Assembly (NCBI GenBank): GCA_022457155.1
Contig: JAJGOT010000435.1
Span: 199,001-263,000, forward strand
Length of the DNA stretch: 64,000 nt
Source of the DNA: Cladopsammia gracilis
Lineage: Eukaryota; Cnidaria; Anthozoa; Scleractinia; Dendrophylliidae
Direction: 5' to 3'
The position numbers were made by a program, and so were the translations under genes. Below the pieces are notes generated by a model. The model did no database searches. It was not told the DNA's origin and worked only from the letters and a program-made list of their open reading frames with translations. The stretch's first letter is position 1, and every line of letters starts with the position of its first letter. This document shows, one piece after another, positions 29,201-56,200 of this stretch.

Positions 29201-32200
29201 AAATCAGGGTGGCAGGGAAGCGCTGCTAGGGAACCCCCCAGGGACCAGGAGAGCAATGCCCTCCTGGGGGGAGAGCAGATCAGGTGGTACCAGGGGTGGC
29301 CACTCTGGACGTGGTCCAGATCTGTCTCCAGTGGGGTAAGGCCCATATCCCTAGTCCACGGAACTAGAGAACCAGGAGAGGGGTGCCCTCCTGGGGGGAG
29401 TATGGATATTTCTCCGGACCTGTCTCCAAGGGCTAAGCCTTACTGTGGGGTAAAGCGCAGCCAAGGGTTTCACTTCCCTGCCACCATATTTATTAATAAA
29501 CGATTCTACTACAACAAAAACCTTGCGGCCAGTAAACTTAAAATGACAAAGGTTCCAGTTGTGGGAGGGTGGGGAATTATTGATGCTTGGTGCAAAGCGA
29601 TGGAAGAATGACTGAGTGGGACACGTGTTATTCCATTATAGGTAAGAGCACAAGGGGAAAATAAGACAGAACCTACTGCCGAGTGGTACTTTTGTTTGAA
29701 AACATCTTACAAAGATTGCCTTACATTGGTCTTTGCCTTGAAACTGATAGATACATTGTAAATGAAGCGACTATATCAAATCTTTAAAGGTCAAATTAAT
29801 GAACCAAAAATTTGAATTTTTTTCGTTATCCATTTAAAGCTTTAACCATAATAAAGCATAATAAAGCATACTTAAAACCATAATAAAGCATACTTACGCA
29901 TCAATTTGCCTTCCTGAGCCTTTAAGTAAGTCACATAGCTAAAAGTACGAAGATTTCCGAAGACTTCACGAAAACGTTTCTGAAATGGCCGCGCGCTTCA
30001 AGTGGTAGGATTGGTGAGGATTATGACGTCACTATTGGCGAGCCAACCGTGTTTCCAGTGTCCTCTCTTCTGGCGAATACATGAGTATTCTAAGTTGCGT
30101 GTAAGATTTTCACTGTTTTCGTATTGAAAATGAACAATTGTTGCTGTAGTTTATCGCAGAACAAAACACCATAGTTTTCCGCTCAGTCACCGACTTTCAA
30201 CTCCAATCCTTGACTGTTTTAAAGTGGTCAATAGTGACGTCACTATTGACCGCAATTTTCCCGATCGCTCTACGATTATGAAGGTCAAAAAGTTTCATTT
30301 TTCAACTTCCAATATCTCTGCGATGCGAAGTCCATATAGTTTTAAACTTCAGAATAATTTATTTGGTCCTCTTTCAACCCATTGCACTAATATTGGACTA
30401 AAAGAAAATATGTCAATTTTTTTGGTTCATTTGACCTTTAATCTTTAATCAGGTACTCTTAAAACAGTTAAAACTATGCTAGGAGGTTTAAATATAAAGA
30501 TGAAATAGTATAACGTTTAAAACATTCTAACTGAGGAAATTCAATTCTAGACTAATTTACAATATATATTCTAATCTAATTAATAAATACATAGATATAA
30601 ATAAGTTAAGATAAAAGCATGAAAAATTTTCGAGTAGTAAACAAGCAGTGTTAGAATAAGATCATTAAAAATTATCGATAAGAGAACAAGGTTTGACCTT
30701 GGAATTGAGAAATTACAGAAAAACAGGCTTGGACTTGGGCCTTGAAAGAGTACGGAGAAGTACAGAAATTGTTGTACCCGTGAGATTTGCGTGACAATAG
30801 GCCATGCAATTAACAAGTGGACTGTGGAATAAAATGTTACATGCCAACAGTGAGTACAATTGTCTCAGATCTCATTAACATCAATTTATCCAATAATAAA
30901 CTTGAACTTTATTATCTTGAAATAGGAAGAACCCATCGCCAAAAGTGATAAAAGCAAAGAAATATCAACTAAACAGACAAAATAATGGCTAGAAATGGCA
31001 AGTTTGATTTCTTGACCGGCTGTCAATAAATCAAATTTCATGAACTGTAATCCATTTCAATCCTTGCAATCCGATCCATTCTATAAAATCTTTTTTTTTT
31101 TTTCAACTAACTTGTATATTTGGTGGCATTTGATGATACAGGGTGTATAACGTGAAAATAAGCTAACCGACATTTTGATATTTCGGCTGGACAGTGTCCA
31201 TTTAAAGGCCCACCTTCACCCAAAAGACGTTGCGATCGTTTGTTTTTGTTTTGAAATGCTCCATTATTCGTAAGTAGTTAGGAAAATACATTCTCTAGAG
31301 CACCTCCCAAGGTACTATTTCCACATATTTTTATAATAATTCCCGATATCCAATTTTTTAAAAATTCCCAAAGTATATTTTTCTATCATTTTCTTGCGAA
31401 TCCCTGTCATAGCTTTTTGATTTTAAAGGGAAATCAAGACCTAATTAATTACTGTAATTTTTTGTATTATTGGAATATTTCTTATGGAAAAAAAAGTTTT
31501 TTTAAAGGGAAATAATTAAAATTTATACGGTAACTCTTGTTTATATCGTTGTTTTTCTATTTATTTAAGAGAATCAAAAAAAATCTAATAAAAATATTCT
31601 TAAATAAACGGCTTTACTTAATACTTAAAATTTATTTCCGTATAAAATATAATTAATATCCTTATTGTGTTTAGTCTATAAATCAAACGGGAATAAAGGT
31701 TTTTTAAATCGAAGTAATCGAAGAAATTGAAAAAAATTCAATAACTTAAAAAAATTACAGAAAATATAATAAATTCTTGAATTGCTTTAAATTTCAAAAA
31801 GGTATGAGCTCACTCGCCCTTCGGGCTCGCTCGCGGGATTCGCAAGAAAATGATAGAAAAATATACTTTGGGAATTTTTAAAAAATTGGATATCGGGAAT
31901 TATTATAAAAATATGTGGAAATAGTACCTTGGGAGGTGCTCTAGAGAATGTATTTTCCTAACTACTGAATGGGGCTTTTGGATATTAGGTTTTTTGGGTG
32001 ATTTTGGTCACTTTCATATAGAAAACTGTTTAACGCGTTAGACAAGGGGATTCCCCGAATTATGCGTTTTGATATTTCTTGAATATAAACACCTGCAGTT
32101 TGTTTTGATTATGGTTGAATATTTAATGATTTTACACATGATAAAGTTTGTTAGTAAAGTTTATCGTAAAAGTAAAGTTTGTTAGTAAAGTTTGTTAGTA

Positions 32201-35200
32201 AAGTTTGTTAGTAAAGTTTGTTAGTAAATTTTGTTAGACAAAAAAAAAATGATAAAAAAAAACGACTAACGCGTTAGCCGAAAAAAATTATAACAAAAAT
32301 AACGACTAACGCGTTAGCTGAAAAAAAATTATTTAAGTTAAACTAATAACTACTTACGTCTTAAACTTTTTATTGTATTTCTTTTCAATCTTCGATGAAG
32401 TAGGTGTTAATTCAATCATTTCTTGATCTAAAAGTTTCATATCAGATATGAATTTCTGATAATCGAATTCACCACCTCTCATTGCTGTTCGTAAATTAGT
32501 CAACACTTTTTCATAAGTTGTAAATCCAAATTTAACCATATCTAATTTTCCTTTGTAATTTTTCATTTCATGATATGTTTTTAATATTATTCCAGCTCCA
32601 GTTAAAACACTTAAAATAATAGGGTTTAAGGTTATTCCACCTGTTATTACACCAACTGAAGCTAGTAACACAGACGAAATATTCATAATATAATTTATTT
32701 TTTTATATTTACTTTGACTGTTTTTGTATATCCATGTTTTTTTATGATAAAAAGAGTATAAATCCTTTAATTGTTGGATTTTCTCAGGATTTAAAGTTGA
32801 AGAAATATGATTGAATTCGAATATATCTTTTTGTTCTTTGTGTCTTAATGATTTTATTTTTGTGATTGGCATTTTATTTATAATATTTATAATAAACTTT
32901 TACTGAATACAAGAGTAAATGTAATTTGGTTAACATTTACAATTTGATCAGTTCCTCTTTTATTAATCGCAATCCAAAAATGACTTGTTCGAGTTAATGG
33001 AAAATTGATATCTCTAAAATATTGATGATCATTTCCATTAATTGAAGATAAACTTTTTGTATTTCTACTATCAGATACTTTCAATGTTATATAAAAATAT
33101 CGACTTGAAACATGTAATTCAGTAAAGAAACAATCTATTGATTCCAATTTACAATTGAATGGTATATATAAAGAAGTTGATATTGAATTGAAAAATAGAT
33201 GGTTATTTGATTTTGATTTATTAAAATAAGCAGTTATAAAAAAATGAGATCTTAATGATTTCAAAAAAGATAAACTAACAGGTTGATCATCTTTTGTTGG
33301 ATTTTTAATACTAATATCATGATTATTCATATTAATATCTGTTTCCATCACCATTTTCTGATTTTCAAAAATAAAAGGAGAATCATAAACACTTGATTCA
33401 ACATCATTAACATAATTTTTTACTCCATAAATAATTAAATAAGCTTGTGCTTGTACTAATGGTGTAGTTTTTGATGCATCACAATGTAAATCAACAAAAA
33501 AATATTCAGGTGGGGAAATTTTATATTTATGCATATGAATAATAGATCTAGTATATCCTTCTTTTTGAAAAATTTTTGTTGATTGTTGACCAATATTTAA
33601 ACTTGTTGAAGTAGCATTAACACTAACATTATCCATAGTAACAGGAAAAAATTCTATACATATAGTATATTCTCCTTCTGGTATTTTATACATATTAAAA
33701 CTTATTCTGGAAACATATTTTTGATTAAAATTTATATGAAGAAGTAAATCATAAGCTTTTTTGTTAAAAATATGTGGACTTCTAGCAAAATCATTAATAC
33801 CAGTTACAGTAATATTACTTTCTGATGAACTTTCATTAACATTCTCCATTAAATATCTGAATTCATCTTTTGGATGAGAGGATGCTGAGATATGAGATTC
33901 ACTTACATATTTTTCTAAATATGAAACATTTACTGCAGAATTTTTTTCACTTGAAACTGGAGTTGCTAAATTAGTAATCTTTTTATTATTCATATTTAGA
34001 TCAATATTTGTAGGATTACTTAATTTATGAAGATCTATTTGATGTATTTGACTATTTATTTTTACAGTTTCTTGATCTACATATTGTTTATTAGCTGCAT
34101 GTTTATAATATGTAGGAATTGCTAAATTAGTAATCTTTTTATTATTCATATTTAGATCTTTATCTGCAGGATTATTTAATTTAGTATCCACATACTGTTT
34201 ATTTGCAACTTCATGATCATATTTAGGTAATGTTGATAAATTAAATATTCTATGATTATTGATATCAATATCAACATACATTGGAGAGACTTCTTTACGT
34301 GATAAGAAAATATTCTTCACATCATTATAAGAAGGTACATTGTTATAATTTTGTGTTAAATAATTAAAATTTTGTTGCTTACTTTGTACAATATTATAAA
34401 GTTCTTTCAAATCAATATTTGCACTTATATTTTGTGTATGAGGAATACCACTAATTCTTCCATCAACATATGCTTTATTAGCTGCATCTTTATTACTTCT
34501 TGGAGTTGTTAAATTTATTATTCTTGTATTTTTTGCATCATAATATCTACCTCCATTCAATGTTAAAAAAATACTTTTCCCATAATTCAAAGGAAAAGCA
34601 TCATTTTCTCCAGCTGCTTGTACATTAGTTATTGCATGATAATTCATATCAAGATGATCTTGCATTGGATTTTCTTCATAACGATTTAAGAAAATATTAT
34701 TTGCATCACTATAAGAAATTAAAATATTTTGATTTTTGTCTAAAAAATTATAATTCTGTGGTTTACTATTTAAAATATTAAAAAGTTCTTTCAAATCTAT
34801 ATCTTTAGTAACTTCATGAGTATGTGCAGGTACATTAGGATGATATTTCTTCAAAGTAATCATATTTACAGCTGCTAAATCATCATTCTCATCTGTATCC
34901 ATATTTGTAATTAATTTTCGATTCATTTCAATTCCTCCAGGACGAATTATATTATTTCCTCCTAAATCAAGATGACCAGTCATATGATTTGTGCCACTAA
35001 CAAGAATAACATCAGTAGGATTTGGTTTTGTTGCTAATCCTGTATCAAGTTGATGTTTAGTTATAGCATCAGAAGAATTAATACCTTCTCCAAGATTTAC
35101 TAATCGTTTTTGTTCAATATCGTAATTATTATCAGCATCTAATTTAATTCCTGTGTTTGCATGTATTTCTTGACTAATCTGTCTAATATATTCGTTGATA

Positions 35201-38200
35201 TCAATATTAGTATATTGATTGATATTATTGAATATTCCCATTTTTATTTTATAATTATATTTTTTCATCAAAATTCTTAGTAACTGATTTTTGTTCTTTA
35301 TCTAAAAACAAGAATTCATAAGGTCTAAGTTTATTAAAAAGATTTGGATCAATCAAATTTTCTTTTGCAATAAGATTCAAATGATTTTTAGAAACTGGTG
35401 GATATAATATCATATGAGAACAATTTAATCTTAATTTTGAGGGTACATCATAATAACTCTGACTTAGATAAATAGGACTAATTCCATGATGTCTTCCATC
35501 AGTATAATGATTTGCTATTTTTTTCTGAATTCCATCTGTAGCATTAACAAGATCGTCAAATATAACAATTTTTCTATTATCTTCTGGATATTCTGTTGTT
35601 TCCATTATATCTTCTGGAAATTCTAAAACATCATATCCAACTTTTTCACTAATTTTAGACATTATTTTTTTAAGATCTTGTAATTTTTCTTGATTATGAT
35701 TAGGACCATAATAATAAATTTTATCATAGTAAACTAATGGGGATCTTATCATATGCATTAGAGTATTTGTTTTTCCACAACGGGTTTGACCAGCAATAAG
35801 CATTCTATAATCTTCATCTAAGAAATCACATAGTTTTTTAGACTTTATTTTTTGATTCGAATCGTAATTTGGGATTTTCATACTTTTTTTTTTTATTATA
35901 ATGCTAGATAATTGAAATAAAATTAAATGTTATTTTTACAAATATTTATATAATCTTATAATAAAAATGAATTTAGAAAATGTCAAAAAGTATGCAGATT
36001 CAGAATATAAAGGATATAAAATATCTAAAGCTGTTACTGCAGCTAAAAATGAAGTGAAAGACAAAGGTCAAATCCGTGATGTTGTTATGAGTGAATATTT
36101 TAAGACATTAAGAGAACCATTAAAAGAAACTATTGTTGAACAACAGAAGAAGACAGATGAAAAACAGGATAAAATAATTGAGCAGTTGAAAGAAAATCAA
36201 TTAGCTATTACTAGTGGTTTAAATCAATTAACATTAGCTACTGGAAAAAATCTTATAGAATTAGAAGATAAACCTTTTACATCAAAATCATTATTAGATA
36301 CTGAAATTGAAGATAAACCTTCTACATCAAAATCATTATTAGATACTGAAATTGAAGATGAAATATCAATAGAAAAATATGATTTGGATACACACTTTCA
36401 TAATAAAGAATCAGTTGATATATTAGATAAATATGGTTATAATTTACCTTCAACTTATAAAAATATTGAAAATATTAGTGAACATATAAAAGATGTTAAT
36501 AATGTAATTAAAGAATTAAAAGTCTCATCAAATATAGCTGATATTTCAACAGATGAAAATGGTATTAAAAAAGCTGAACCCAAAGCAAAAAATCCTAAAC
36601 CAGATACTTTAGAAAAAATAAAAGAGTTTAATCTTTTAAATACTTTTAAAGAAAGATTGATAATAATTGAATTAAGTCGTGGAATAAAAGGTAAAGGATT
36701 AGGTATTCGAAGATATAAACAACCAAGAAGAAATGCTTATAAAATTCAAAATAATCAATATGGTGGATTAATGATTGATTTACCAAACTTAATGAAAAAT
36801 TTAAAACTGAATGCTTATCGTGGTGGTAAATTAATCTATGAAGCAGATGCTGATAAATCTCTTATAAGCCTATTAACAAAGAGATACAATCCTAAAACAA
36901 AATATTCAATGAATGCTGTAAAAATATTTAATGATTTAAATATGCTAAGTAATATGCCACCTCATAAGTCATCAGGAAAATCTAAAATGGTCGGATCAAG
37001 TATTACTTATTATCAAGATCCAAAAGAATTAACAGATAGATTAAAGGTATTAATTGGTTCAATAGCTGCTGGGAATAATTCACCAGTTATAAGAAATGAT
37101 ATTTCACAAATCAATGATGAATTATTAAGAATAGAAGCTATTGATAAAAAATTACATGAAAAAATGTATAATAAATGGGTAAAATCTTAGATTTTAATAC
37201 TTCAATTAGTATTAAAATCAAAAAAAGATTATATAACTTTTTATGCTTTTATAAGCATTTTTCCAGATGAAGTGTATAATTCAATTTCTTTTTCATGTAA
37301 AACCAAAGCATTAATTGTATAATTACTTCCTGGAGCATCATTTAACTCATATCTAAAAGTTAGTGAAACAACACCATCTTTAACATCTTCATCTTGATTT
37401 CTAAGATCAAAATATAACATCCCAAAAAGATTTTTGAAATTTGTTCTATTAATTATTGGTCCACTTAGTAAATCATTATAAGCTGAAGAATATGACATTA
37501 ATGTTCTATAAAGTCTCGATTCCTCTTTTGATGTCATTTCCAATTGAGGATAATATATACTGTTGTTTACTTCTAATTGAGCTCTAGTAAAATGACGATT
37601 ATTTGCACCAATACTGAATGTTTTAAAAGTGAAAATATTTTGTTCCTGATTTCCATAACTTGCTGTAGGTACCACCCATATGAAAACATGCCTTGGTCTT
37701 CTAATTCCTGTAGTTATACGAAAGTAGCTATGAGTTGATGTTGTTTGTAATATTTCACTATGTTCTCTTAGGTAAGTCCATTTTTTTGGTTTTAAATAAT
37801 TTTCAAGATACATCTTCAGTCCTTCTCCATTAAACATAATTTTCGGACACCATAATCGTAAATTAGTGATAATGACTTTTGAATTTGGAGCATCAGTACC
37901 ATCCCTAAAAACAATATTATTATCATCTTCTAATTTTAATAAAATATTCATTTTGATATTAGGATGAAGATTATTTTTAAAAGCTGCAAAATAACTATAT
38001 AAATTCAGAGGAATTGAAAAAACAGTCTCATTTCCACCATCTGTTAATTTTTTTCGTTCACCAAACCCTTCATTATATAAAACTCTTAATTCTTTATCAG
38101 CTAATTGTTTCCGTGGTTCTGCAGTTCCTGTAGATGAATCTAAATAGAAAAATTGATCTTTTCCAATTGTATCTGCATAACTTTTAGTATATTTCAAAAG

Positions 38201-41200
38201 AGATAAAACATTTGATGTTTCATTAGCTCTTGTATTATTATATACAGTTATTCCATTACATTCAACTTGGATTTCATTAATGAAAGTATGACCATTAGTT
38301 GTGGTACAAAATGTATTAGTAGCACCAGTTCCTGCTGTTATTCCAGTCGTACTATCAGCAAGAGTTACAAGTTTAAACTTAACTTCTAAATAAGCATTAT
38401 ACCAATCAATTGGATTAGCTTCTGATGAATTATCAACTGTGAATCTATAATTATCCTTTACTTGTCTAGCATTATTTGGAACATTAGCATTTAATGGTGT
38501 TTCCAAATCATAATATGTATATTCATATCTCCTTACTAAATTCGGGCTTCTAAAATTTCCATTCATTTTATTTTAAGATTATATAAAAATTTTTTTTAAA
38601 GAAGATCTTTATAAACATCTTTGACATAAGAATATTTATCATTATTTTTTTGTAAAAGTTTAACAATTTTTTCACCTTTATTTTCTTTCGGTGGATTTTC
38701 TTTTTGTGGTATTACATAATCTTGAATTTCAGGAATAAGATCTTCTGGTATAGTTTCAATTTCAAGTTTCTTCTCTTTCTTTTTTGATGATTTAGGTTTA
38801 GGTTTAAATTTATCATAAATCGTTTCACCAATTAATTGTCCAGTTTTCTCACCAATCTTTTCAGAACCTTTTTCTACAAATTTTTCTGCTGCTGTTGAAG
38901 CAAGTTTAGATGCAGTTTTTCCAGTAAGTTTAGCTCCAATATTACTCAATACATCAAAAACACCACCACCTTTTGTCTCTGTATCTGTATAATAATCTTC
39001 ACCAGTATCATAATTTCTTATTCGTCTTTCCATTTTTTATTTTATACATTATAATATTATTTATTTTCTTTCACCAATAACAACAGTTAAACTTATATCA
39101 ATATCATTCAAATCAACTTCTCTATCTTGGTCATCTGTAATATAAAATTTCACTTCAAAAATTTCATTTCTATTTATTCTATTCCATAAGTAATTTATAG
39201 GTTGAATTTCAAATGGTAATGATCTTGTTTTTGTATTAGTTGAAAATGTGTATAATACATTTGATCGTTTTCCTGAGATAATACTATCAGATAATAAACT
39301 AGTTCTAATATATAAATTATCAATATCATTACTAATATTAGGAAAATTCTTTCCATATGCACTCTTCTTTAAAACTTTCTTTTCAAATCCTAATAATTTA
39401 CCAAAATTACCACTATTAGAAAAATCAATGTAATAATTTTCATTAAGAGCAATAAATACTTTATATGTTGTAAGATCAAAAAGTATATTAATACCATAAT
39501 TTTCTGTATTTCCAAGTTTACCTATTCTTTTTTGAATAAGAGTATTTATATCTTGATAATCATAAATACCTGATGGAAATACAATTGTTATATAAGTTTT
39601 ACCTTTATCTTTTGATATTTTCAATTCATTGTTTTGATACTCAGATCTAATATTATGCCAACTAGCAGTCATAGAAAGATGGTCTAATGCTAAATAATGA
39701 GTAGTGTTTGGATCCAATTTCAATTCAGGAGTAAATTTTAGAGTAAAATTACCTGGTTTATTTGATGGATTTTGTTTTTTAGCATCAAGACTTTTAAAAA
39801 CTAATACTCTATTCTGAATCATTTTATTTAATAACTTATATAAAATAATTTTTTATAAACTTTTCATTATAATCCTGATCATCAATTTTAAAAACTTTTA
39901 AAAGATTATAAAAAGATTTCTTATAAATATTATCAAGAAAATATAAACAGTAATAACCACATCTAACAGAATAGATATCTTGAATTGGATAACCTTTATT
40001 ATAAATAAAACCTAGATTTAATCTTTTTGCATGATCTATAATTTCTAATGGTGGTGGAAGCGAAAAAGAATCGAAATAGTAAATATATGGTGGTTTTATG
40101 AATTCTGCAACCCAATGAGTTCCTTGTCCTACTTTATCATCAAGATTAATTATACAACATCCTTTTTCATGAAAATGATCAATTGAGTCTCTAGAAAAAA
40201 TTCCTTTAAAATTTGGTATCTTAAGATAATCTATATATTCTAAAAGATCAAAATTACTGAGAGGAATATCTTTGAAAATAGGTTTTAAAGTATTGCTCCT
40301 AATACTGGAATTTGGTTGAATGGACTGTTCGGTCCTAGTAATAATCCTTGTCCTTTTTTTTTTTTTACCTTTCCCTTGTTGTTCCCATGTTCCAAAAAAT
40401 GGAGGTGGTTGATAAGGAATCATTCCTGGTCTAGCACTTACTTGTAATCCTTTTCCTTTTCCTTTTCCTGCTATTGGTACTTGTAATCCTTTTCCTTTTC
40501 CTTTTCCTTTTCCTTTTCCTGTTCTTGGAACTTGTAATCCTTTTCCAAATATTTTTGATGCTAATTCTATAGCCATAGGAATACCAATTGCAGCTAGAGT
40601 ACCTAAAAATCCTCCTTCAATTTGTCTTTGTGTTGGTTTAAAATATAATGCTCCATGTTTTTGTATAGCTTTATTTAAATCATCAATTTGTTTTTTTGTT
40701 AATTCTTTTTTAAGACTCATCAATTTAGATAAATATTCAGATGGAATATTAATTCCTTTACCAAAAATTTTATCAATTCCAAGTGATCCTAAAGCTGTTA
40801 AAGCACCCTGAGCAAGTGCTGGAGCTGCTTTACTAGCTGCTTTTGCAGCCATTGGAAGAACTTTTGAACCTATTGAAATAAGAGATCCAAACAAACTTCC
40901 ACCTTCTTTTACTACTTTTCTAATTTGTGTTTTTGTTATTTTAATATCAGAACCAACTCCATTAGTTTTAGCTTTATTAAGTTTATTAATTTGTGTTTTT
41001 GTCAACATTAATTCATCTGATCCAACTAAATTATTTTTAGTAATTCTTAAAGTAATCTCTGATCTATCCTTATAAGCTTTTGCTAATTTTTTTAATTGAG
41101 ATTCAGATAATTTTAATTTGTATGGAAAATAATTCGTCATTCTTTTTTATTTAATGAATTATATAAAAAGTGTAAAAGTTAAATTTTTTTATCTAAATAT

Positions 41201-44200
41201 ATAATAAAATGAAATCTTATTGTGTGAAAGAAAAAAAACAAACAGAATGTGTGAAACCAGAAGGTTATCAAACTGCTAAAAATGGAAGAAAAATGTATTG
41301 GTGTACTTGTGCTTCTTGTGGAATAAAAAAAACACGATTTGTTAAGAAACAGGGAAACTAATTCAGCCTTCTTCTTCACAAGCACAAGAAGGAGAAGGCT
41401 TGGGTGAATTAGCATTAACAGGTTTAACTCATGCTTTACCTTGGTTAGGTAAAAAAACAGTAGAAATGGGACGATATGGTATATCTGAAGCTATGAGAAA
41501 TAAAAACTTACAGAAAAAAGCAATTAATTATGGATTAAATAAATTAACTCCAATGATTCAAGATGTTGGTAGTAAAGCATTGGATGAAATATCAACAAAA
41601 ATAAGACCAAAATTAAAATATAAAACAAATAGAAAAGATCTAGACCAAGGAGGTAGTGTAGATATTCATAAACTCATTGGAAAATTGCCAAAACCAAAAG
41701 GTGGTTGGACTCCTGGAGAATATAAGTACATGGGTCCGTATAACCCTTTGAATGAACAATTAAGATATGATCCTGAAACAGGTGAAGTATTAGAATGGAT
41801 GGTTAAACCATATAATAAAGTAGATGAAATTGCTGCTTATCATGATATATGTTATGATATGGGAAAAAATAAGAATGAATGTGATAGACAAATGGTTAAA
41901 TCTTTAGATCTGATTCCATACGGTGAAATACCGAAATGGGGTCAAACGGCGAGATTTATTATAAATACTAAACAAAAACTTGGTTTGGGTTTACCAAAGA
42001 AGACAAAAAACGTAAAGCGGCGTTGAGTAATAATAGTGATTGGACTCAACAATTAGCCGATGAATTACATAAACCAATCACTAGAAACTTTTCAAAGAGA
42101 ACTGTAATATCAAATGGGATTGATGAAATCTGGGCTGCAGATTTGGTTGAAATGCAAAAGTTTAGTAAATGGAATAAAGGAATAAATTATTTACTGATGG
42201 TAATAGATATTTTTAGTAAATATGGATGGATTGAACCATTGAAAAACAAAAAGACTGAAAGTGTTAGTAAAGCATTTGATGATATATTTAAAAAAAGTAA
42301 ACGTAAACCAAAAATGCTTTGGACAGATAAAGGTTCTGAATTTATCAGTAAACATTTTAAGAAGGTCCTTGAAAAGAATAAAATCAAATTATATCATACA
42401 GAGAATGAAGAGAAATCAAGCATTGTTGAGAGATGGAATAAAACAATGAAAACCAGAATGTTTAAGATGTTTAGTGTAAATAACAATACTGTTTATTGGA
42501 ACATCCTTGATAAATTAGTTAATGATTATAATAAAACAAGACATTCTAGTATTAAAATGACTCCAATTGAAGCTAGTAAAAAAGAAAACGAAGAAAAAGT
42601 TTATGCTAATTTATATTCAGATTTAATTTATTTGAAACCTGGAAAAGTAAAATTTAAGGTTGGAGATTTCGTTCGTATATCAAAATATAAGAGACCTGTA
42701 TTTGATAAAGGATATACTCCAAACTGGACAGAGGAAATATTTGTGGTTAATGAAATATTAAATACAAAACCTATTACCTATAAAATTGTTGATTTAATGG
42801 GTGAAGAAGTAAAAGGATCTTTTTATGAAAAAGAGTTACAAAAAACAAAACAAGAAATATATAGAATTGAGAAAGTATTGAAACGAGACACCAAGAAAAA
42901 GTTAGCTTTAGTTAAATGGAGTGGATATCCTGACAAGTTTAATTCGTGGATTCCTTTGAGTGATTTAAAAGATTTTTGATACTATTGTAGTATTAAAAAT
43001 TGTTTCAAGCGACATAAAAAAAAAAGCCCATTAAGGGCTAATACTTTTTTTTTTATTTTAAAACAAATCCTGTGAATCACCTTCTTCATTTTCTTCATCG
43101 ACTTCATCATCACTTTCTTCTTTAATCATTAATAATGATTCTCTTGGTTTTAATGGTCTAACATAAACTTCATGAACTTTAACTTGAATAGATTTTACTA
43201 ATTTGGAAATATAAATACTCTCAATTATCAAAGCTAATTTCACTTTACAATATTGATTAAGATATTCAAATGGATCAACATTTTTATTTCCTTTTGTTTT
43301 AAACAAAGATAGAATTTTATTAGATTTTTCTGAATATATAAGTTTTGCATATAAAACTGGTGAAACACTATCATCATTTACTGTTTTAGGTCTTCCTTTT
43401 TTATCAGTAATTTCTTTCTTTTTATAATATAATATTTGCGATAAATTTTGAGATTCTTCAACACCAATTGTCTCTTCAAGATGATTATAACAAAGTTGTT
43501 GTATTTTTTCTAATGTTTTAAAAAACTTTTTTTCTTCTTTTGTTGGATCTTTATCTTTTTCCCATAAACAAATAGGAATAGTATATCCAACTAATTCTTG
43601 AGATTCTTGATTCTTTCTTTCAGATACACCAAAACTAAAAAGTAAAGGTGTTTCTATTATAAGAGGACCTTGCTTACCATTAGGATAAGTTGTTTCGATT
43701 TTAATACGATGATATTTCATCTTGGAATTCTTGACTTTATATTGTTTGGCTTCGTTAAAAATTAGATTTTCTTTAGAAATGTTTTCGGGAGATATAAGTT
43801 GCATTTTTATTATATATAAATATTTTTTTTTTTTAAATTATTTTTTTAAAAATTATAAATTTCAGCATAAAAAAAATCCCTAAAAAAGGGATATAATTAT
43901 TAATAAATATAATTAACTTGACTATCACTAACACTAACTCTAGCAGAATCAGAATCAGAATCAGAATCAGAATCAGAATAATCGGTTTGCCAATGAATAA
44001 TAACATCTTTTTCTTTAAAATAACTTTTAAAATCTTTAACAATTTTTCTTATTTCTTTAATTATTTCTTTATTATCTTTTCTCAATGAAAGTTTTCCCTG
44101 ACATTTATAAATATCTTCACGATATAATGATTTTCTATATTTTTTTTGTCTTAACATAATACTTTTAATTATGCTAAAACTTAAATAATTAGAATATGTA

Positions 44201-47200
44201 AAATCTATTAACTTTTCATAATTTAAAATTCCGAATTTTATATCATCACCTTCTATACAATATAAAACTTTTTTTTTATATTCTTCTTTCATTAAATATT
44301 TTCTAATATATTTTATTTCTTTTCTTATTCTATTCAAATATTTTCTTTTTGTTTGTCTATTTCATTACTTTTTTGACTTTTTTTAAAATATCTTAATATA
44401 TCTTTTATTTTTAAACTATTATCTGATATAATTTTATCTTCAATTTCTCTCTTTCTTAACTCATAAAATCTTCGATAATTAATATATATATTGTGAAAAT
44501 GAAGATCAATCATAAACATTTTACCATATAATATTTTATCAAAATATGTTACACCAAAAAGAGTGATAGGAATTGCTTTGTATTGCGTATTAACAGATTT
44601 GCTTTGTGAAGAATTCATTTTTATTTTATATAAATATTTTTTTTTTTTAAATTATTATTTTTTTTTCCGCTACAACTTAATTTCAAAACTCAATTAAAAT
44701 TATGATATTATAATTTCTTTTTTAACTAATTCCCACCATTCTTCATAAAAAGCTTTTGTTTCTTCTGAAAGTTTTAATGGTAATAATTCATCAACATTAC
44801 TATAACCTAGAATAATTAAAATCTTTTTTATAATAAAAGTGATATTAATTATTCTCTTTCTTTCAAACTGTGTATTTACTTTCTTAATTAAATTTGCATT
44901 ATCAATTTTATAAAGTATTTCATTTATCTTAGAAATATCATCATTTTTTATATCAAAAATGTTTTGTATTTCATTGATCTTTTTCTTAAAAAAATACTTT
45001 CTTTGATATACTGATTTTTTTCTATAACAACATCTTTCCCAATCAGATATATTAACATCATAATTTAATATTCTTTGAATTTGAAGACCACAATCACAAC
45101 AAACTTCAGCATAATCAATAATTTCTTTATTCTCATGTTTGCATTTTTCATATATTGGTTTATTTCTTTTTTTCTTTTTTTTGATTTTACTTTTTTCATA
45201 AGATCTTAATATGGAAGAATATAATTTAATCTCTTCTTCTGTATACATATTTAATCTTTTATTTTTTTAATTTTTTAAATTTTCTCTTTTATAAAATCTT
45301 TCTCTCTTATACCTTTTATATCTAATTTCTTCATCAAAATCTTCTATTAAAAAAAGTCTTCTTAAATATATTAATAAAATATCTTTTTTTGTGAAATTAA
45401 TCATTTTATTTTATATTATTTTTTTTTTATTTTCTCAAAGCTAAAGTATTAATTTTATTTTTACAAATCAGTCTTTTATCGTCATTTGCAGATAATGCTA
45501 CTTTATTCATTTTCATCGAGTAAATTTTATGTTCTTTACTTCTGATTATATTCATTGTTCTCATTTCTTCTTTTTCTGAGAATAAACATTTCTTGAAATC
45601 TTCAAATGTTATTTCCCTTTTAATAACATTTTTCTTAATTCCTTTACATTTCTTTACTTCAATGTCTTCAACTTTAAAAGAATAAAGCTTAGGTCTTAGA
45701 CCAACAAAATGTGTAATTTGTTTTCCACAAGCTTCATCTTTAAACATTCCTATTACTTTGTTATTAATTCCAGTTTTTATTCCAGATTCATGATTTTCTG
45801 GATAATCACTTGTATCAAACTTTTTTTTGATGTCTTTTCTTATATCATAATAAAAATCATCTGTATGAATTTCATACATTAATGAATCTGTATCTGTGAA
45901 TAATAATTCAGCTTTATTGGAATACTTCTCTCTAATATAATTATAATGAAAATCATACATATGAAATTTTGACAAATCAAGAACAGCTTGTCCCACATAA
46001 ATAGGTTTATTAAAATATATTTCTGTCTTTTTCAAATGAACTGCAATTAATTTTTGATCAAATATTGTTAATCGATCAAAATTAGGTTTTGATGACAAAT
46101 TAATAGCCTTTTTCTTATTATTTACTAATTGTATATTTTGTCTTTTTCTTATATTTTCAATTGTTTTACCAAATACAGAATTATTCATTAATTTAAAAAA
46201 ATCTTTTTCAAAAGAGTTTTTAGATTGTTTTCTTAATTCTGTATTTTTTTCAATATAAGGTTTCATCCATTCAGATTGATAAAATGATATTCCTCTGTGT
46301 ACTTTTTCAAGTTCAAGTCCTAATTCTAAACATTGTCTAAGATTTCTATAATGTATTATATAATTCTTTTTACGGTAAAAAGATCCAACAAGTTTCTCTA
46401 CCGAACCAAACTTTAATCTTTCTGTAGCAAGTGGATAATCATTATGTTCTTTCCATAGTTTTTTTGGATATTTAAGATCCACTTCAAAAATATAACCAAT
46501 ATTTGTAATTTTCTTTTCTAATATTTTTATTACATTTTCTTTTGTAAGATTTTTCATCCATTTAAAACCATGAGTTGGAAGTTTTTGTATCATTGACCAA
46601 CCATAAAGATTATTAGCATCAAGATATGTAATAAATTTTGATTCTTTATCAGGATTATAATTTTTCATATATTTATTGTTTGCTTCTGAATATCTTTTTG
46701 ATATATGAGTTATACCACCTCTAATTCCTTGATCAAACATCATTAACATATCATAATCATGTAATAATTCAAGTCTTTGTTCTGTTTCTTTAAGACATGC
46801 ATCCCAAGCTAATCCAGGAGATGAATAATAATGAGCAGGATCTAAATTATAATACTTTAAACAAGTTTTACGAAAGTTTTCAAATACATCAGCTAAAAGT
46901 AATACATCTGTTTTAAGATATAAATCATGATAATCTTTAATAGTTTTACAATTAAAAGAAGTCCAAACATTTTGTGCATGAGTATAATCCTCATCAGTTA
47001 TACCTTCATTATTTAATTTTGAATAGAATTCTTCTTTTGGAGGTAATTGTGTTTCTTTAAATTTTTCTAAAGAATTAACATAATCATAAGGATATACTCC
47101 TTTTCTTGTTAATAATTCTATATTATTATAGTGTCTTTTTATAGAATAAAAATCATCAGGTTGTAGATTATTAACAAGATTTGCTAAAGAAGTTAATAAA

Positions 47201-50200
47201 AATTTAAATGAATCAATAAAACGTAATTCAAAATTAATTGTAACTTTTTCATCTTTTTTCTTAAATTCAGCTACTTTAACTTTCTTAGAAAATGATATAT
47301 ATTTCTCTTCTGTTTTAGGAATAAAAGTTAAATCACCTTTCATTTTTGCTAATTCTTTAATAAAAATATGTGAATCATAACCTTGAAGATTATGAAATAC
47401 TACAGGAAGTACTCTAGGTTTTTTACAAAAAATATTACAATTATTATGAGCAGCTCCTCTAAACTTACCAGTAAAATGACAATGATCTCTAACTTTTTTA
47501 TTCTTAAAGTCTCCTTCAATAAAAGGTTTTTCACAAATATGACAATTTGTTGATTTATTAAACTCTATTTTATCAGAGTCTGTAAATATCATCATTTGTG
47601 GGAAATTATAAAAACTAAAATTAATTTGTTTTGCAATTTTTTTTAATTCTTTTACAAAAACTAATGCAATATTTTCATCTTCTTTTTTCTTTGTATAAAT
47701 AATTGGATTGATTTTAAATATTCTATCAACTCTATCATCAAAATCAAAAGATTTAATATAAATACAAAATCCACAAGGTTCATGTTTTTGATATTCCATT
47801 GAATAAGAATAATTTGGATCCGGTTCACAATTATTCATTGGTTTTGTAAAACATTCAAAATCAGCATAAATAACAAATGGTAAAGGTAATTTTTTATTAT
47901 AATTTTTAAAAGATAAAAATGAGTTTTTAGGAGGCATTTTTACTGCAGCTGTCGCATTATTAGTACAAAATATAATGTGTTTATTTAGGAGATCCTCTTT
48001 TGTAAAATGAGATAAACATTTTTTACAAAAATATTTTTTTCTTGTATCTTTACTTATTTGTGTATTGATTAATCTTGAAAAATTTTTGATAAGTGTATAA
48101 TGTGTTTTTCCGGTGTCTTCATAAAGAAATAAATCTATTGTATTATTACAATCTTTGTCATTAATTCTTAAAGGATAAAATTTATTATATTCATTAATTG
48201 AAAAAACATTAATTCCTGGAATATTATTATTTTGATTTTCAAACTTTTTTATATCTGTTAATTTTACTGGAAAATTAATACCTTTAAAATTAAGATCATT
48301 TTCATATTGTTTTAAATTTGAAATTCTTTGAGGATCTTTCTTATGTGGATGTAAGTATCTTAAAATACACCACATGAAACATTTATCATCTTTTTTATTT
48401 TCTAAATTTATTATAGCTTTCTTACTTGAAATAAAATCAGGAAGTTTAATATATGAAGATCCTTTCAAAGGTTTATATTTTATAGTATGAATTTCTAATG
48501 ATAAAATCTCTTTAAAATACCAACCTGAACCATTTCTTTGATAAATTAAAATTTTACTAAGAATTTCTAGAATTATTTTAGTTAAAATCTCTTTAGCATC
48601 TATACCTTCAAGATTAATATGTGTTTCAGAATGAAAATAAGCTTTATCTTTAATTTTATCTTCATGCTCCATTCTTTCCATTAAACAAACTAATATAAAT
48701 CTAACTTTAATATTTCTATGATTTTTAAGAAATTCTTTTAATTGTGAAGCTTTTTCTTTAAAATAATCTTTAGGAAAGATTTTTGGTTTTCCTTCAATTA
48801 CATATTTTTCAGCAAAATTATCAAGAGCAGATTTTTCAAATTTAATTCCAACGTGGTATTCTTTCATTGCTCTTTTAAGTGCTTTCTTTAAATATTTTGG
48901 AGTATCTTTTGGAATCTTTTTATTTTTTATACATTCAAGAAAATAATCATCAAATGTTTTAATTTTCTTTGGTTTAGGTTTAGATTTAGGTTTAAGTTTT
49001 ATTGGTTTCTTTTTTAATTTATCATTTTCTTCCTTTTTATTTTTAATATATTCAATCAATTTTTGTTTCTTTCGTTCTTCTTTAATTTTTCTATTTTCTT
49101 TAGTTTCCTTTTTTGCTATTTTCATAAGTTCATCATATGATAAGTTATTTAAATCAGATGAAGACATCCTTTTTATTATATATAAATATTTTTTTAACTT
49201 TATTTTATTTTTTTTTTCCGCTTCAACTAAAAAATAGTTATAAATTTCAGCATAAAAAAAAGCCCCAAAATGGGGCTAAAATTTATCCATAAATATAATC
49301 AAATACTTCTTCTGTATCAAGATAATAATTTCCATAATCTTCATCGTGGTCTCTATTTTCATCTTGATCTTCACTTTTTATCACAATCTTTTTATAAAAT
49401 TTATTTAATAATTTCTTAACAATTTTTTTCTCATTACAAGTTGGATATCCATTTGAATTTTCAAAAACTGTCATACTTCCTTCTCCAATATTTATAAAAT
49501 ATTTGAATAATTCACCTGAACAATGAAATATTACAAAAGTTACTAAATCTTCCATATCTTCAGGCATATTATAATATAAATTCAAAACTGGAATATGATC
49601 CAATTTATAATTTATATTTATAATAATTTCTTTCAATTCTTTTTTTGCTGTTTTCCTTTCTTTTTTAGAAATCTCTAAATTTAGAGATTTTTTTAATTTT
49701 TCCAAAACTTCTACAAACAAGGAGTCAATAGCATGAAATCTTTCTTGTAGAATATCTCTTGAATCCATTTTTTTAGGATTCTGGTTTTTCTTTATGATTT
49801 GGTTTGTGTTTGGCTTTGCGTTCATAATCTTATACATATTAATATTTCATTTCTTTAAGCCTTTATTATTTTAAAAATTGTTTTTTTTATTTTCTACCTT
49901 CAACTTAAATCACCCAAAAAACCTAATATCCAAAAGCCCCATTTAGTAGTTAGGAAAATACATTCTCTAGAGCACCTCCCAAGGTACTATTTCCACATAT
50001 TTTTATAATAATTCCCGATATCCATTTTTTTAAAAATTCCCAAAGTATATTTTTCTATCATTTTCTTGCGAATCCCGCGAGCGAGCCCGAAGGGCGAGTG
50101 AGCTCATACCTTTTTGAAATTTAAAGCAATTCAAGAATTTATTATATTTTCTGTAATTTTTTTAAGTTATTGAATTTTTTTCAATTTCTTCGATTACTTC

Positions 50201-53200
50201 GATTTAAAAAACCTTTATTCCCGTTTGATTTATAGACTAAACACAATAAGGATATTAATTATATTTTATACGGAAATAAATTTTAAGTATTAAGTAAAGC
50301 CGTTTATTTAAGAATATTTTTATTAGATTTTTTTTTGATTCTCTTAAATAAATAGAAAAACAACGATATAAACAAGAGTTACCGTATAAATTTTAATTAT
50401 TTCCCTTTAAAAAAACTTTTTTTTCCATAAGAAATATTCCAATAATACAAAAAATTACAGTAATTAATTAGGTCTTGATTTCCCTTTAAAATCAAAAAGC
50501 TATGACAGGGATTCGCAAGAAAATGATAGAAAAATATACTTTGGGAATTTTTAAAAAATTGGATATCGGGAATTATTATAAAAATATGTGGAAATAGTAC
50601 CTTGGGAGGTGCTCTAGAGAATGTATTTTCCTAACTACTTTCGTACGCGTGGTCTGATTGGTTGCACGCATTCAAATTCAGCACAGAAAGTGATCACGGC
50701 GCGCACAGCATTTTGGGTGAAGGTGGGCCTTTAACAATAGACCAATTTCGATATATTAATATTCATACTTGGCTCCAAGGCTTGGGGGAATAAAACAAAA
50801 GAAATGAATAATTCAACGCTGGACCTCATGTCATTTCTTTTGTTTTATTCCCCCAAGCCTCGGAGCGAAGTATGAATTTTAACACATTGAAATTGGTCTA
50901 TTAGCAGTTAGAACGTTGCACATCAGACATCAAAGTCGGTGTTTTTAGACTTACCCTTTGCCATCATGTTGTTTCTCTCTCCACCCAGGTGTATAAATGG
51001 TTACCTATAAAATTATATCTGTGGGTAACTCTGTGAAGGGAAGAGTAGCAAAATACTCCTCCAGTGGCTAATTCATGCTACATAAGGTCCGGCCATTGTG
51101 GGCCACCTGTGCCTTGTGTCTGAGTTTACCTATCCTTATCCTTGCTTTCTGCTAAAAGTTGATTGTTTCAATTTACAGCAATATTCAGCAGCTTTGCTGT
51201 ATGTCATAACAAACACATACATTCGTGTAGTTGATTTGATTCATTATTTTTCCCCAGGTCTTATTCCACCAGCGGTGCTAGCAAGAGGCAACAAAGCCAA
51301 AGCAGCATACAGAAGAGCCTTAAAGAATGGCAAAACATGTGATGTACGTGTGCGAATCATGCTTATTGGTCAGAACCAAGCAGGCAAAACAAGTGTGAAG
51401 AGATCCCTCAAGGGTGAAAAATTCAACCAACATGAAACCAGTACACAAGGAGTGGAGATGGATGCACCCTTGTTAAAGGCTGGAATCAAGGCATGGAAAG
51501 TACATCAAACCGATGAAACCATCACTGTTTTTGATCACAAAAGTGCACAGCTGATAGCCCGACAGCTCTCAGGACCATCAGATGATTTTGTAGAGTCTCC
51601 CACACTATCCAATGCTGCTGATTTGCCAGAAGATTACCCTGCAAGAAAGGACTCTTCCTCAAACGGAGTGAAAAACTCTGAAAATTCATCTGTTTTTAAG
51701 GAGCTTCCTTCTCATTCACACATTGTATCTAGTGGACACTCTGCAGATTTGCCCCGCCATTGTTTTGAAGGTAAATACTATAGACACCAATGACTTTACG
51801 ACTTACACCGTTTTATTGTTAATAGAAATTACCTTTTAGTTAACCAAACGACATCTCATTTTGCTAGTTTGTTAGGTAATAAGTCCCAAAATACATTTTA
51901 CTAATTTTCTTTGGTAAGAAAATTTCAAATAAACTGGGCCTCCCGAGAAGGTTGATTCTCACTAAACAAATTTTTGTTAGAAGAGAACAATGTAAACAAC
52001 CTAATAATGATTCCCTCTTCACGGGATTTTCCGCGGTTACAAAATAATGCTTAGAACACGACGTTCCAGACTGCCGGCTTTACTGTCCTTCTTACGTAAA
52101 ACTGTCCGAAACTTGTGTTTTTAGCATTCGTAACCTCGAAAAATCCTATGAAGAGGAAATTATTTTTTCGTTGTAGCAATGAGAGTGAACGTTTCAGGAG
52201 AACGATATGAAGTCATTTCTATTATTTAATCAAAGGCTCCTAAGAGCCAACCCATGAATAAGAAATGCTAACGCCTAACGCAATCTTGCGGTAAGCTTAT
52301 GTTTTCACACTGCCGCGGTTCGATATTTTTGAAAATTAAATGTAAGGATTTTTGACGAACGCAAAAATCAAAAAAACTACATCACTTTCATAAGGTCCTG
52401 AGCTGGACTTGAACTGGCGCCTCCCGACTACAGTCCCGACGCTTAACCACTTGACCACCGAGGAACACATGCTTAGTGCAGACTAAATTTTGTTATTTCA
52501 AGGTAGATACCCATCAAAATTTGGTCTTGGTTGAAAAATCCTTTTAGATCGATTGTATTGATGCATTATAGACTCCAAATGCGAAACATCTTTAAGCTTA
52601 TTGTTGTTTATATTCGTTTACAACAAATTAGTTATTGTTATCGCTGGATTCACTTTGTTCTTGTTACGAAACGCAAAGCATTACGTCACTAAGGCCGTGT
52701 GGGCGGCACGGTGGTCTAGTGGTTAGCGCGTCGGACTTTCAACCTGAAGGTCGGTGGTTCGAGCCTGGTCTCTGCCGTCGTGTTGTTTCCGTAGACAAGA
52801 AACTTTACTCCACACTGTCTCTCTCCACCCAGGTGTATAAATGGGTACCGGCGACAAAATGCTGGGGGTAACCCTGCGATGGACATCCCATCCAGGGGGG
52901 AGTAGCAATATTCCTAGTTGCTTCATGCTACGGAAACCGGGTTAAGCTCCGGCCGTGTGGGCCATCGTGGCCCGAGTGCGACTTTACCTTTTACCTTTAC
53001 TAAGGCCGTGTTCTATTGGGAAAAAACCGTTTTCGGTTGGTTTGGTTGATCAACCATTTCAACCAGCTCTGAACCTGGTTGAAATGGTTGAAATGGTTGA
53101 AACCGAAAATGGTTGAAAAGTGTTCTATTGGGACACCTCAACCAAATCAACCAAAACCGGTTTAGGTTGAAACGGTTGTTCCCAGTAGAACACGACCTAA

Positions 53201-56200
53201 GTTTACAGCTGATGGAAGGAGTGAGTGAATTTAGCCACCGTTACCGATAACCCGTTCATTACGCATGCGCTTATTCACGGGTTAAAAACCCTTATTAAGG
53301 TGTTTCCCTCCAGTTTCCGTGTAGCCGCACCGACCGTTTTTGAGCGGCCGTTTAACTAATTTTTCTTTATTGAATTAGAATGAAATTTACACAAAATATT
53401 GTACAAAGTTTGAAGTTTATAAGAGTGTAACAATTTTAAAAATCGGATTTAAAATTGCGGAGATAAACGAGAAACATTGAAATCGCTTGAGTCTAAATTC
53501 CAAGCGATTGCGATGGCATCTAGAAAAATCACAACTATTACGATAAACTATGACATATGGCAAACAATATATCTAAAAATTAGAAAATTTTGTCAAGCCG
53601 ATTTTGAGTAAATCGAAAAAACATTTCGAACTTGTGATTTTGCATGTGTATGAGCACATCTACAAATTCCTCAATTAAGCTTATAAAAGTTTAATTTCTC
53701 AATCTCAAATTTACGCCAAAATGCGTGTATAGTGTATGAGATGAAACTGTGAAAGTTTGAAAGCGTTTCTCGTTTTAGTTTTGGAGATTCGATTTTCTGT
53801 AGGAAACCATAGTTTTTTGACTGAGTCCTTGATATTGTAGTTTTAGCACTTTTCTACATATTTCAAAAACCGCGAGATGGATTTTTTTTAAACTTTTATG
53901 GTCATTTCTTTATAATATGAACAACATTGTCTCAAAGTTTCATCTTGATTAAAACATTGCAACATGGTCAAATAAAATAATAAAGTTCACCTAAAATGTG
54001 ATTGAGACTTTGTACTTTGATTGCACGGTTGAAGGCGCACGTCGCAAAGACGCTTTAATTAATTCAGGTGAAGTGTAACGCATTTCGGCGTGTTGAGAAT
54101 TATGCAAATCGCAATGACTTCTTTCTTTTCCCTATAATTCAAAATGTCGAGAGAGTCCAGAGCACGTCAAATGCGAATAAAAAACCTGCTTACAAATAAA
54201 CGTCCCACTGAAATTCGTGGGAATGATAAAAATAACGTGGAACACAGCCCCTAACGTTACTCCGCAAAACATGATGGTCACGCAGAAATACGTTGCGCTT
54301 CACCTGAATTAATTAATTAAAGCGTCTTTGTGCGCCTTCAACCGTGCAATCAAAGCACAAAGTCTCAATCGCGTTTTGGGTGAACTTTATTATTTTATTT
54401 GACCATGTTGCAATGTTTCAATCAAGATGAAACTTCGAGACAATGTTGTTCATATTATAAAGAAACGACTAAAAAAGTTTAAAAAAAAATCTATCTCGCG
54501 GTTTTTGAAATATATAGAAAAGCGCTAAAACTACAATATCAAGGACTCAGTCAAAAAACTATGGTTTCCTATAGAAAATGGAATCTCAAAACCTAAAACG
54601 AGAAACGCTTTCAAACTTTCATAGTTTCATCTCATACTCTAAACACACATTTTGGCGTAAATTTGAGATTGAGAAATTAAACTTTTATAAGCTTAATTGA
54701 GGAACTTATTAATGTGCTCATACACATGCAAAATCACAAGTTCGAAGTGTTTTTCTGATTTACTAAAAATCGGCCTGACAAAAGTTTCTAATTTTTAGAT
54801 ATTTTGTTTGCCATATGTCATAGTTTATCGTAATAGTTTTGACTTTTCTAGATGCCATCGCAATCGCTCGGAATTTAGACTCAAGCGATTTCAATGTTTC
54901 TCGTTTATCTCCGCAATTTTAAATGTGATTTTCAAAATTGTTACAATCTTATAAACTTCAAACTAAGTACAATATTTTATGTAAGTTTCATACTAATTCA
55001 ATAAAGGAAAGTTAGTTAAACGGCCGCTTTAAAATGGTCGGTGCGGCTGCATGGAAACTGGAGGGAAACACCTTAAATCGGGCTGGCTATTTGCTAGCGC
55101 AATTTTATAAAATTCAAGTCGAATTCCTGAATGGTCGCCAGCGCACGGTGGTGGCTGCAAGCATGACAAATTTTCAGTGACAAATTGTGCATCAAAGACT
55201 GCGCGAGACTGGGGTTGGTAATTAAAAAGTAAACAAGTGCATTCGATTTTGCATGGCTTACATTTGTCATTGCATGTCCTTGTGCATTTACATGTATAGA
55301 TTATTGTTATAGATTCTTAGGGATGTTCGTTATTTATTCCCATATTAACTCGCTAAAGGAGTCACACACATTGCCGCCAGTATTTGTTTCATGCCTTCTG
55401 CTTCTTTTCAGGGATAAATATAAGAGATCACGTGGAACCTTCTTCGATGCTTCTCCAAGATGATGTCTTCATCAGAGATGCAGAACTTTCAGATAATCTG
55501 CCACCGAAGGTTGTCAGCTTGGTAGAGCGTATCCTTCAACAAGAACACTCTGCTTTAGCCGAGGAAGTTTGGCCGGTGATCTGGGACTTTTCAGGTCAAT
55601 CCCTTTTCCATGCCATACATCCAATTTTCATGTCACGAGACGCTGTATATTTACTGGTATCTGACCTGAGCAAGGACCTCTTTAGCAGGGGAGACACGGG
55701 ACAGCCTGGGAGGGGTACCAGGATGGAATGCAGAGATGAGTCCAGTCTTGATCACCTGATGAGGTGGATGGACTTTGTTCATTCCTTTCAGGATACCAGC
55801 AGTGCAGATGTTTCAGACACTGCCCAGCCACCGGTCATCTTAGTTGGAACGCATGCAGACAAAATTGATGGAGATCCTTGGAAATCCATGAATGCCATCT
55901 TGAACAGTTTTCGTGGAAAATCGTTTTCCTCACATATTGTTGATGAGACGTTTGTCGTGGACAACACCCGTGCCGGGCAGGCTCATCAGCAAGAGGATCC
56001 AAACGTCCAAAGACTTAGACAAAAGATCATTTCTGTGGCCTCCACATTGCGTCACACAAAACGAGAAATTCCTCTGCAATGGCTTCGTGTTGAGAAGGTT
56101 GTTCATGGTCTAGCCAGCAATGGATACAAGCATGTCACTAAAACAGAATTCAAAGCAATTGCTCAGAGAATATGTCATTTTGAAGTGGACGAAGACAGTG

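Follow-up and report, generated by a model that had tools for sequence, protein, structure and literature searches.

A candidate two-step −1 frameshift cassette linking a DUF5679 protein, a phospholipase A2 and the integrase in a Polinton of the coral Cladopsammia gracilis

INTRODUCTION

Two questions about Polintons concern the expression and delivery of their integrase and the formation of infectious particles. A Polinton in the coral Cladopsammia gracilis raises the first of them directly: how is an integrase made when its reading frame begins inside that of a phospholipase A2 (PLA2), which itself begins inside a third frame? Betaretroviruses such as MMTV solve a comparable problem by two −1 frameshifts, from which Gag-Pro-Pol is made. 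An initial annotation, made from the sequence of a single copy, had proposed that the coral element does the same. We followed up this proposal by comparing the element with its relatives in the same genome and in protein and contig collections. The window analyzed is a 64-kb stretch (contig JAJGOT010000435.1, positions 199,001 to 263,000, forward strand) of an 877.8-Mb assembly (GCA_022457155.1), and all coordinates below are those of the window.

RESULTS

The element and its genes

The element extends from 31269 to 50643 and is very AT-rich, with a GC content of 20 to 31% against 34 to 44% in the flanks (2-kb windows). Inverted terminal repeats mark its two ends (31269-32004 and 49907-50643, with weaker matches extending to 31202 and 50734). 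They are made up of a 429-nt and a 315-nt piece that abut each other, both 100% complementary. Each terminal repeat also holds an internal inverted pair of 132 nt. In a domain scan, its open reading frames (ORFs) included those for a double-jelly-roll (DJR)-like capsid protein, an A32-type ATPase, and an rve integrase with a chromodomain. We call it a Polinton because it combines these proteins with the inverted repeats; all four hallmarks of the group, namely, inverted terminal repeats, capsid protein, packaging ATPase, and rve integrase, were found. The same features, including the DJR type of the capsid protein, the A32 type of the ATPase, and the chromodomain of the rve integrase, are shared by Polintons/Mavericks and adintoviruses (Eupolintoviridae).

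Two further ORFs were assigned by eye. The ORF at 45427-49275 (1282 aa), for which Pfam at E 0.01 returned only Endonuclease_7 and gave no confirmation, resembles in its motifs the protein-primed DNA polymerase B (PolB) of Polintons and may be PolB-like. The product of the minus-strand ORF at 39836-41146 gave a weak DUF4479 match and nothing above the Pfam cut-off; its C-terminal part, which lies behind a Lys/Gly-rich repeat, resembles an adenain-type protease in one motif. The motif TATATAA lies within 45 bases 5′ of the first ATG in 7 of the 16 ORFs (35916, 37241, 39061, 39836, 41209, 43058, and 45427) and is perhaps the element's own promoter. It is often followed by a ATAAAATG-like sequence. 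Elsewhere in the window, inspection by eye suggests that an open frame at 62529-63650 (minus strand) is part of an LTR retrotransposon integrase and that the open frames at 51086-51793 and 55357-56877 (plus strand) are pieces of a host gene with a Roc/COR-type GTPase domain.

Three overlapping frames and their heptamers

The initial annotation described three plus-strand frames that step by −1 twice, and this arrangement was confirmed, with overlaps of 16 and 55 nt. ORF1 (41209-41361) encodes a 50-aa DUF5679 protein (PF18930, E 1.2e-6), ORF2 (41346-42026) a PLA2-like protein (PF08398, Phospholip_A2_4, E 4.3e-7), and ORF3 (41972-42979) the integrase (rve, E 4e-12) with its chromodomain (Chromo, E 2.3e-7). 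As had been claimed, ORF1 alone of the three has both an ATG and TATATAA, the motif ending just 4 bases 5′ of the ATG. The first ATG of ORF2 is at 41466 (codon 41) and that of ORF3 at 42152 (codon 61), the latest among the 16 ORFs, in which the next is at codon 37; neither has TATATAA in the 45 bases before it.

Both overlaps contain a slippery heptamer in the register X XXY YYZ, again in agreement with the annotation. At junction 1, G GGA AAC (41352-41358, plus strand) lies directly 5′ of the ORF1 stop TAA (41359-41361), and at junction 2, A AAA AAC (42005-42011, plus strand) starts 19 nt 5′ of the PLA2 stop TGA (42024-42026). A further in-register heptamer, GGGTTTA, lies upstream within the junction 2 overlap and is missing from some copies. 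The annotation had judged the two canonical heptamers, together with their phase, spacers, and stems, hard to explain by chance or decay. In support of that view, GGGAAAC and AAAAAAC each occur in register only once across the 16 element ORFs (5,617 codons), namely, at the junctions; however, once a loose 14-heptamer set is accepted, the probability of a random hit is 0.03 for the first overlap and 0.11 for the second. The heptamers on their own are therefore suggestive only, and the comparative evidence has to bear the weight.

Conservation and selection within the family

Close copies are numerous in the same genome, at least 40 by DNA search and at least 120 by integrase search, and among the matches listed by the latter the integrase frame is free of stops in 117 of 120 copies. 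The integrase queries P0146 and P0210, searched against the same genome, returned the window's family again. Long loci, picked by integrase similarity, were fetched for 55 distinct insertions. At junction 1, GGGAAACTAA is kept in 53 of the 55; at junction 2, AAAAAAC is kept in 54, the remaining one having AAAAAAT. Within the window's family, the heptamers thus passed the comparison with related copies that the initial annotation had called for. The whole double-step layout, for which ORF1 had to be uninterrupted up to the heptamer, the −1 frame to continue past the second, in-register heptamer, and the third frame to stay open for at least 310 codons, is intact in 34 of the 55 insertions and broken in 21. 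In one copy (L058), which is broken further downstream, ORF1 and PLA2 share one frame. ORF1 occurs in two main types that are 82% identical in protein, and the heptamer is kept in both.

Across the 55 distinct cassette sequences, the N/S ratio (distinct nonsynonymous to synonymous changes, per site), obtained by simple counts against the window sequence without a tree, is 0.31 for ORF1. In the PLA2 frame it is 0.47 upstream of the first ATG and 0.44 in the remainder, and in the integrase frame it is 0.21 between the heptamer and the first ATG and 0.23 beyond it. Indel events are multiples of three in 132 of 174 cases. By these ratios and this indel phase, the stretches before the first in-frame ATGs are under purifying selection and therefore very probably translated in these frames.

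This result bears on a restart reading, in which the integrase is made unfused from a TTG that overlaps the PLA2 stop (TTGA), or from a near-cognate start, and PLA2 starts internally, for instance at ATG 41466. The TTGA is indeed kept in the window's family, a start at 41466 would keep the PLA2 core intact, and 111 of the 120 listed integrase relatives in the protein database are called as starting near the restart position, close to the conserved DW. These gene calls, however, do not separate ATG from TTG, and a restart accounts neither for the heptamer nor for the downstream pseudoknot described below. The integrase frame before its first ATG and the PLA2 frame before 41466 are under purifying selection. 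Moreover, six pieces from other Polinton families (L083 to L085, L087, L089, and L092) share AAAAAAC but no such TTG restart, and their PLA2 stop and its surroundings differ. We regard this reading as very unlikely.

Other Polinton families in the same genome

The strongest test of the proposal came from families other than that of the window. When P0121, a distant integrase, served as the query, 77 matches from such families, 56 to 63% identical to P0121, were obtained, and 150-base pieces were fetched around 20 of their junctions. AAAAAAC was present in all 20, at the end of the PLA2 frame, which reads PKN or SKN at this point, and the integrase follows in the −1 frame in 19; in the remaining piece (L093), a seventh A joins the frames. 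The proposed comparison across related Polintons thus favors the heptamer. The PLA2 stop lies at varying distances among the 20 junctions. Between the heptamer and the ELHKP motif, the integrase frame contains an ATG in two pieces (L085 and L087) and none in the other 18, and two pieces (L081 and L082) are disrupted shortly beyond this region. With a degenerate pattern that covers the PLA2 tail and allows synonymous codons, 934 matches were obtained in the genome, against 2 for the control. All 59 listed strings from these 934 (25 distinct) end in CAAAAAAC, whereas the preceding Leu and Gly codons vary; a narrower pattern matched 616 places, with 0 for the control. In six sequences (L083, L084, P0001, P0008, P0013, and P0024), the PLA2 frame runs past Lys-Asn to a GKKN or GKKD tail before its stop, a tail at which a second slippery site is possible.

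The frames might instead be joined in the RNA, through splicing or because the polymerase slips on the run of A residues. AAAAAAC has six A, the number of A varies among copies where such runs are longer, L093 has its seventh A, and the heptamer of the window is followed by GTAAAG, which resembles a splice donor. However, the GT-AG spans between the conserved PLA2 tail and W24 of the integrase are far below intron length, and other families have GGGAAA, GGCAGA, or AGAAAA after the heptamer, without GT. Slippage, for its part, leaves unexplained the AAC, the pseudoknot, and the GGGAAAC of junction 1. Joining of the frames in the RNA is, in our assessment, extremely unlikely.

Downstream RNA structures

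The initial annotation had placed a stem-loop after a spacer at each junction. Structures were found at both, although they differ in form from those described. At junction 1, the hairpin (41358-41412, plus strand) is present, but instead of a 13-bp stem it has a 12-bp inner helix (about 41366-41377/41388-41399) and an outer helix (about 41358-41365/41405-41412). Its fold of −24.8 kcal/mol (z −4.4) was equaled in stability by 1 of 200 shuffles. It is the most stable hairpin of the cassette: among 567 windows of 70 nt, the 9 that reach −21.9 kcal/mol or lower all lie there, and 8 of 1,000 synonymous recodings, in a simple count without a tree, fold equally well. The arms are kept in most copies and in both ORF1 types with a loop of variable length; in L053, the 3′ arm is shortened.

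At junction 2, the 4+7-bp stem described earlier proved to be only part of a predicted H-type pseudoknot (42018-42083, plus strand). Its S1 has 7 bp (GTTGAGT, 42022-42028, with ACTCAAC, 42044-42050) and a 4-bp extension across a bulge (CGGC, 42018-42021, with GCCG, 42056-42059), which is disturbed in some copies (L044 and L045). The 10-bp S2 pairs TAGTGATTGG (42034-42043), in the loop of S1, with CCAATCACTA (42074-42083). As a plain 70-nt fold alone, junction 2 is not outstanding, ranking 38 of 567. Pseudoknot controls were run for six sequences. The score of the window was reached by none of 300 dinucleotide shuffles and none of 300 synonymous recodings, and the same holds for L075, L076, and L091; for L093, 0 of 300 shuffles and 1 of 300 recodings were as good, and the pseudoknot of L094 is weak, with 19 and 7 of 300 controls, respectively, as good.

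Comparable structures follow the heptamer in the other families. A short-loop S1 of 9 to 11 bp lies 6 nt past the heptamer (8 nt in L077) in 14 PKN pieces (L075 to L082, L086, L088, L090, L091, L093, and L094), and 11 of these, all except L082, L093, and L094, also have a 6-bp S2. Since the 3′ arm of S2 in the PKN families is shifted by one codon relative to that of the window, S2 was left out of the column counting. In the S1 alignment of 12 sequences, 126 of 132 cells are paired, and in 3 of 11 pairs both partners differ (two of these pairs in L091, the third in the window), each resting on a single sequence; compensatory changes of the kind that the annotation had suggested looking for are thus seen in S1 of junction 2. 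None of 500 column shuffles attained this result, 87 of 500 did so for the count of further pair types, and 11 to 52% of cells are paired when the partner is slid by 1 to 3 columns. Four pieces (L083, L084, L087, and L089) have instead a long-range stem of 12 to 14 bp, 7 nt past the heptamer, with a loop of 52 to 62 nt; these are 4 of 4 testable pieces, as those of L085 and L092 end before the stem region. The spacer between the heptamer and the pseudoknot or long stem of junction 2 is 6 to 8 nt, or 10 nt for the 7-bp core of the window. The usual marks of a −1 frameshift site, an in-register heptamer and a downstream structure after a short spacer, are present at both junctions. Conservation of the site together with compensatory changes is found at junction 2, and conservation at junction 1 within the DNA of the window's family only.

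Protein relatives and other DNA collections

Among the 120 PLA2 relatives listed of 2,058 found in the protein database, the tail is Lys-Asn in 88, LN[AVMI] in 16, and neither in 16; the LN[AVMI] tail might hide T TTA AAC. A DUF5679-like segment stands in frame at the start of 11 of the 120. We read these in-frame proteins as evidence that the DUF5679-PLA2 fusion is a real product, and they show that frameshifting at junction 1 is not universal. The PLA2 tail and the integrase are in a single frame in several single-member clusters (P0147, P0162, P0173, P0197, P0228, P0094, P0101, and P0110). Outside the window's family, in which it is seen as DNA, junction 1 can be followed through protein ends alone: of 56 ORF1 relatives, 23 end in Gly-Asn (preceded by Q, K, S, M, or P), 8 in Lys-Asn, and 25 otherwise. 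The Gly-Asn and Lys-Asn ends lend indirect support to a slippery site at junction 1.

The viral contig collection contained no relative by PLA2, PLA2-alignment, or integrase-alignment search, the genome contig collection none by PLA2-alignment search, and the phage and plasmid collections gave no match. The integrase-alignment search of the genome contigs returned one distant Polinton, L064 (WPAE01000166.1), the sole other DNA relative seen. The contig is titled as an Ignavibacteria MAG and is probably eukaryotic or viral contamination of that bacterial MAG. Its Polinton-type integrase has an early ATG, extra N-terminal residues, and no overlapping PLA2 frame, unlike that of the window, which has no early ATG and follows PLA2 in −1.

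The initial annotation had named in-frame fusions or ATG starts in related copies, and heptamers that are not conserved, as observations that would speak against it. The heptamer is conserved, but in-frame forms and ATG starts do occur: 11 of 120 listed PLA2 relatives fuse a DUF5679-like segment to PLA2 in frame, 1 of 20 junctions of other families is in frame, and 2 of 20 have an ATG. Such in-frame relatives, together with the 21 of 55 insertions broken somewhere in the cassette, could suggest that each step is a mutation that broke the frame and became fixed while the element decayed or relied on a helper. This reading is largely contradicted by the stop-free integrase frame of 117 of 120 listed copies, by purifying selection on both sides, and by the finding that divergent families share one heptamer in one register, and we find it scarcely credible.

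DISCUSSION

We suggest, with considerable confidence, that the three frames form a cassette for two-step −1 programmed ribosomal frameshifting. On the comparative sequence evidence, −1 frameshifting at junction 2 is very likely, as is its wide occurrence among the Polinton families of this genome, and −1 frameshifting at junction 1 is likely. The proposal supposes that one mRNA is used, that ribosomes slip on it at some rate, and that the resulting ratio matters. A single mRNA would be read from the ATG of ORF1, and most ribosomes would stop after the 50-aa DUF5679 protein. Some would slip by −1 on GGGAAAC, aided by the hairpin, and produce DUF5679-PLA2, and some of these would slip again on AAAAAAC, aided by the H-type pseudoknot, and produce DUF5679-PLA2-integrase-chromodomain. 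The junction 1 step would be limited to families with the DUF5679 leader.

The predicted scheme resembles that of retroviral Gag-Pro-Pol in its two successive −1 steps, in its canonical heptamers, each separated by a short spacer from a downstream hairpin or H-type pseudoknot, and in having the integrase as the last and, by prediction, rarest product. In contrast to the retroviral case, the carrier here is a DNA element with capsid genes, in whose 16 ORFs the domain scan found neither a reverse transcriptase nor a Gag domain, and the first and second products are a 50-aa DUF5679 protein and a PLA2 rather than Gag and protease. The likeness to retroviruses and LTR retrotransposons is one of mechanism, not of membership.

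PLA2 of the parvovirus type acts in entry; therefore, a PLA2-integrase fusion could ride in the particle in the manner of Gag-Pol. As with Gag-Pol, the fusion would bring few integrase molecules into the particle, here on the PLA2 entry protein, and the element's own protease would perhaps free the parts; the protease-like product of the ORF at 39836-41146 might serve in this separation. We offer as a tentative hypothesis, which we think possible though doubtful, that a large group of Polintons carries its integrase in the virion through a frameshifted PLA2-integrase, in some of them DUF5679-PLA2-integrase, and that this enzyme integrates the incoming DNA.

In the literature searched, as far as its accessible text goes, we found no earlier description of PLA2-integrase frameshifting in Polintons, and our claim of novelty extends no further. 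The nearest case in that text is the adintovirus Penton, for which a hypothetical −1 frameshift giving an alternative C-terminus has been proposed (PMC11071296); it belongs to the same broad virus group, but it concerns another gene and not the expression of the integrase. Where frameshifts appear in the accessible parts of PMC10120064, PMC12721341, PMC12567637, PMC8097293, PMC8363768, and PMC6431247, they refer to assembly errors, search settings, decay, or another virus, and the term was not found in those of PMC3671162, PMC12220804, and PMC8547959.

One practical consequence would be that the start assigned to this integrase by mechanical gene calling is wrong. If a conserved frameshift couples the integrase to a PLA2 entry enzyme, integrase is expected in particles at a low, fixed ratio, and a retrovirus-like control of expression would extend to an integrating DNA element. 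If the hypothesis of integrase carried in the virion is true, frameshift-controlled integrase would be a solution common to reverse-transcribing viruses and integrating DNA viruses.
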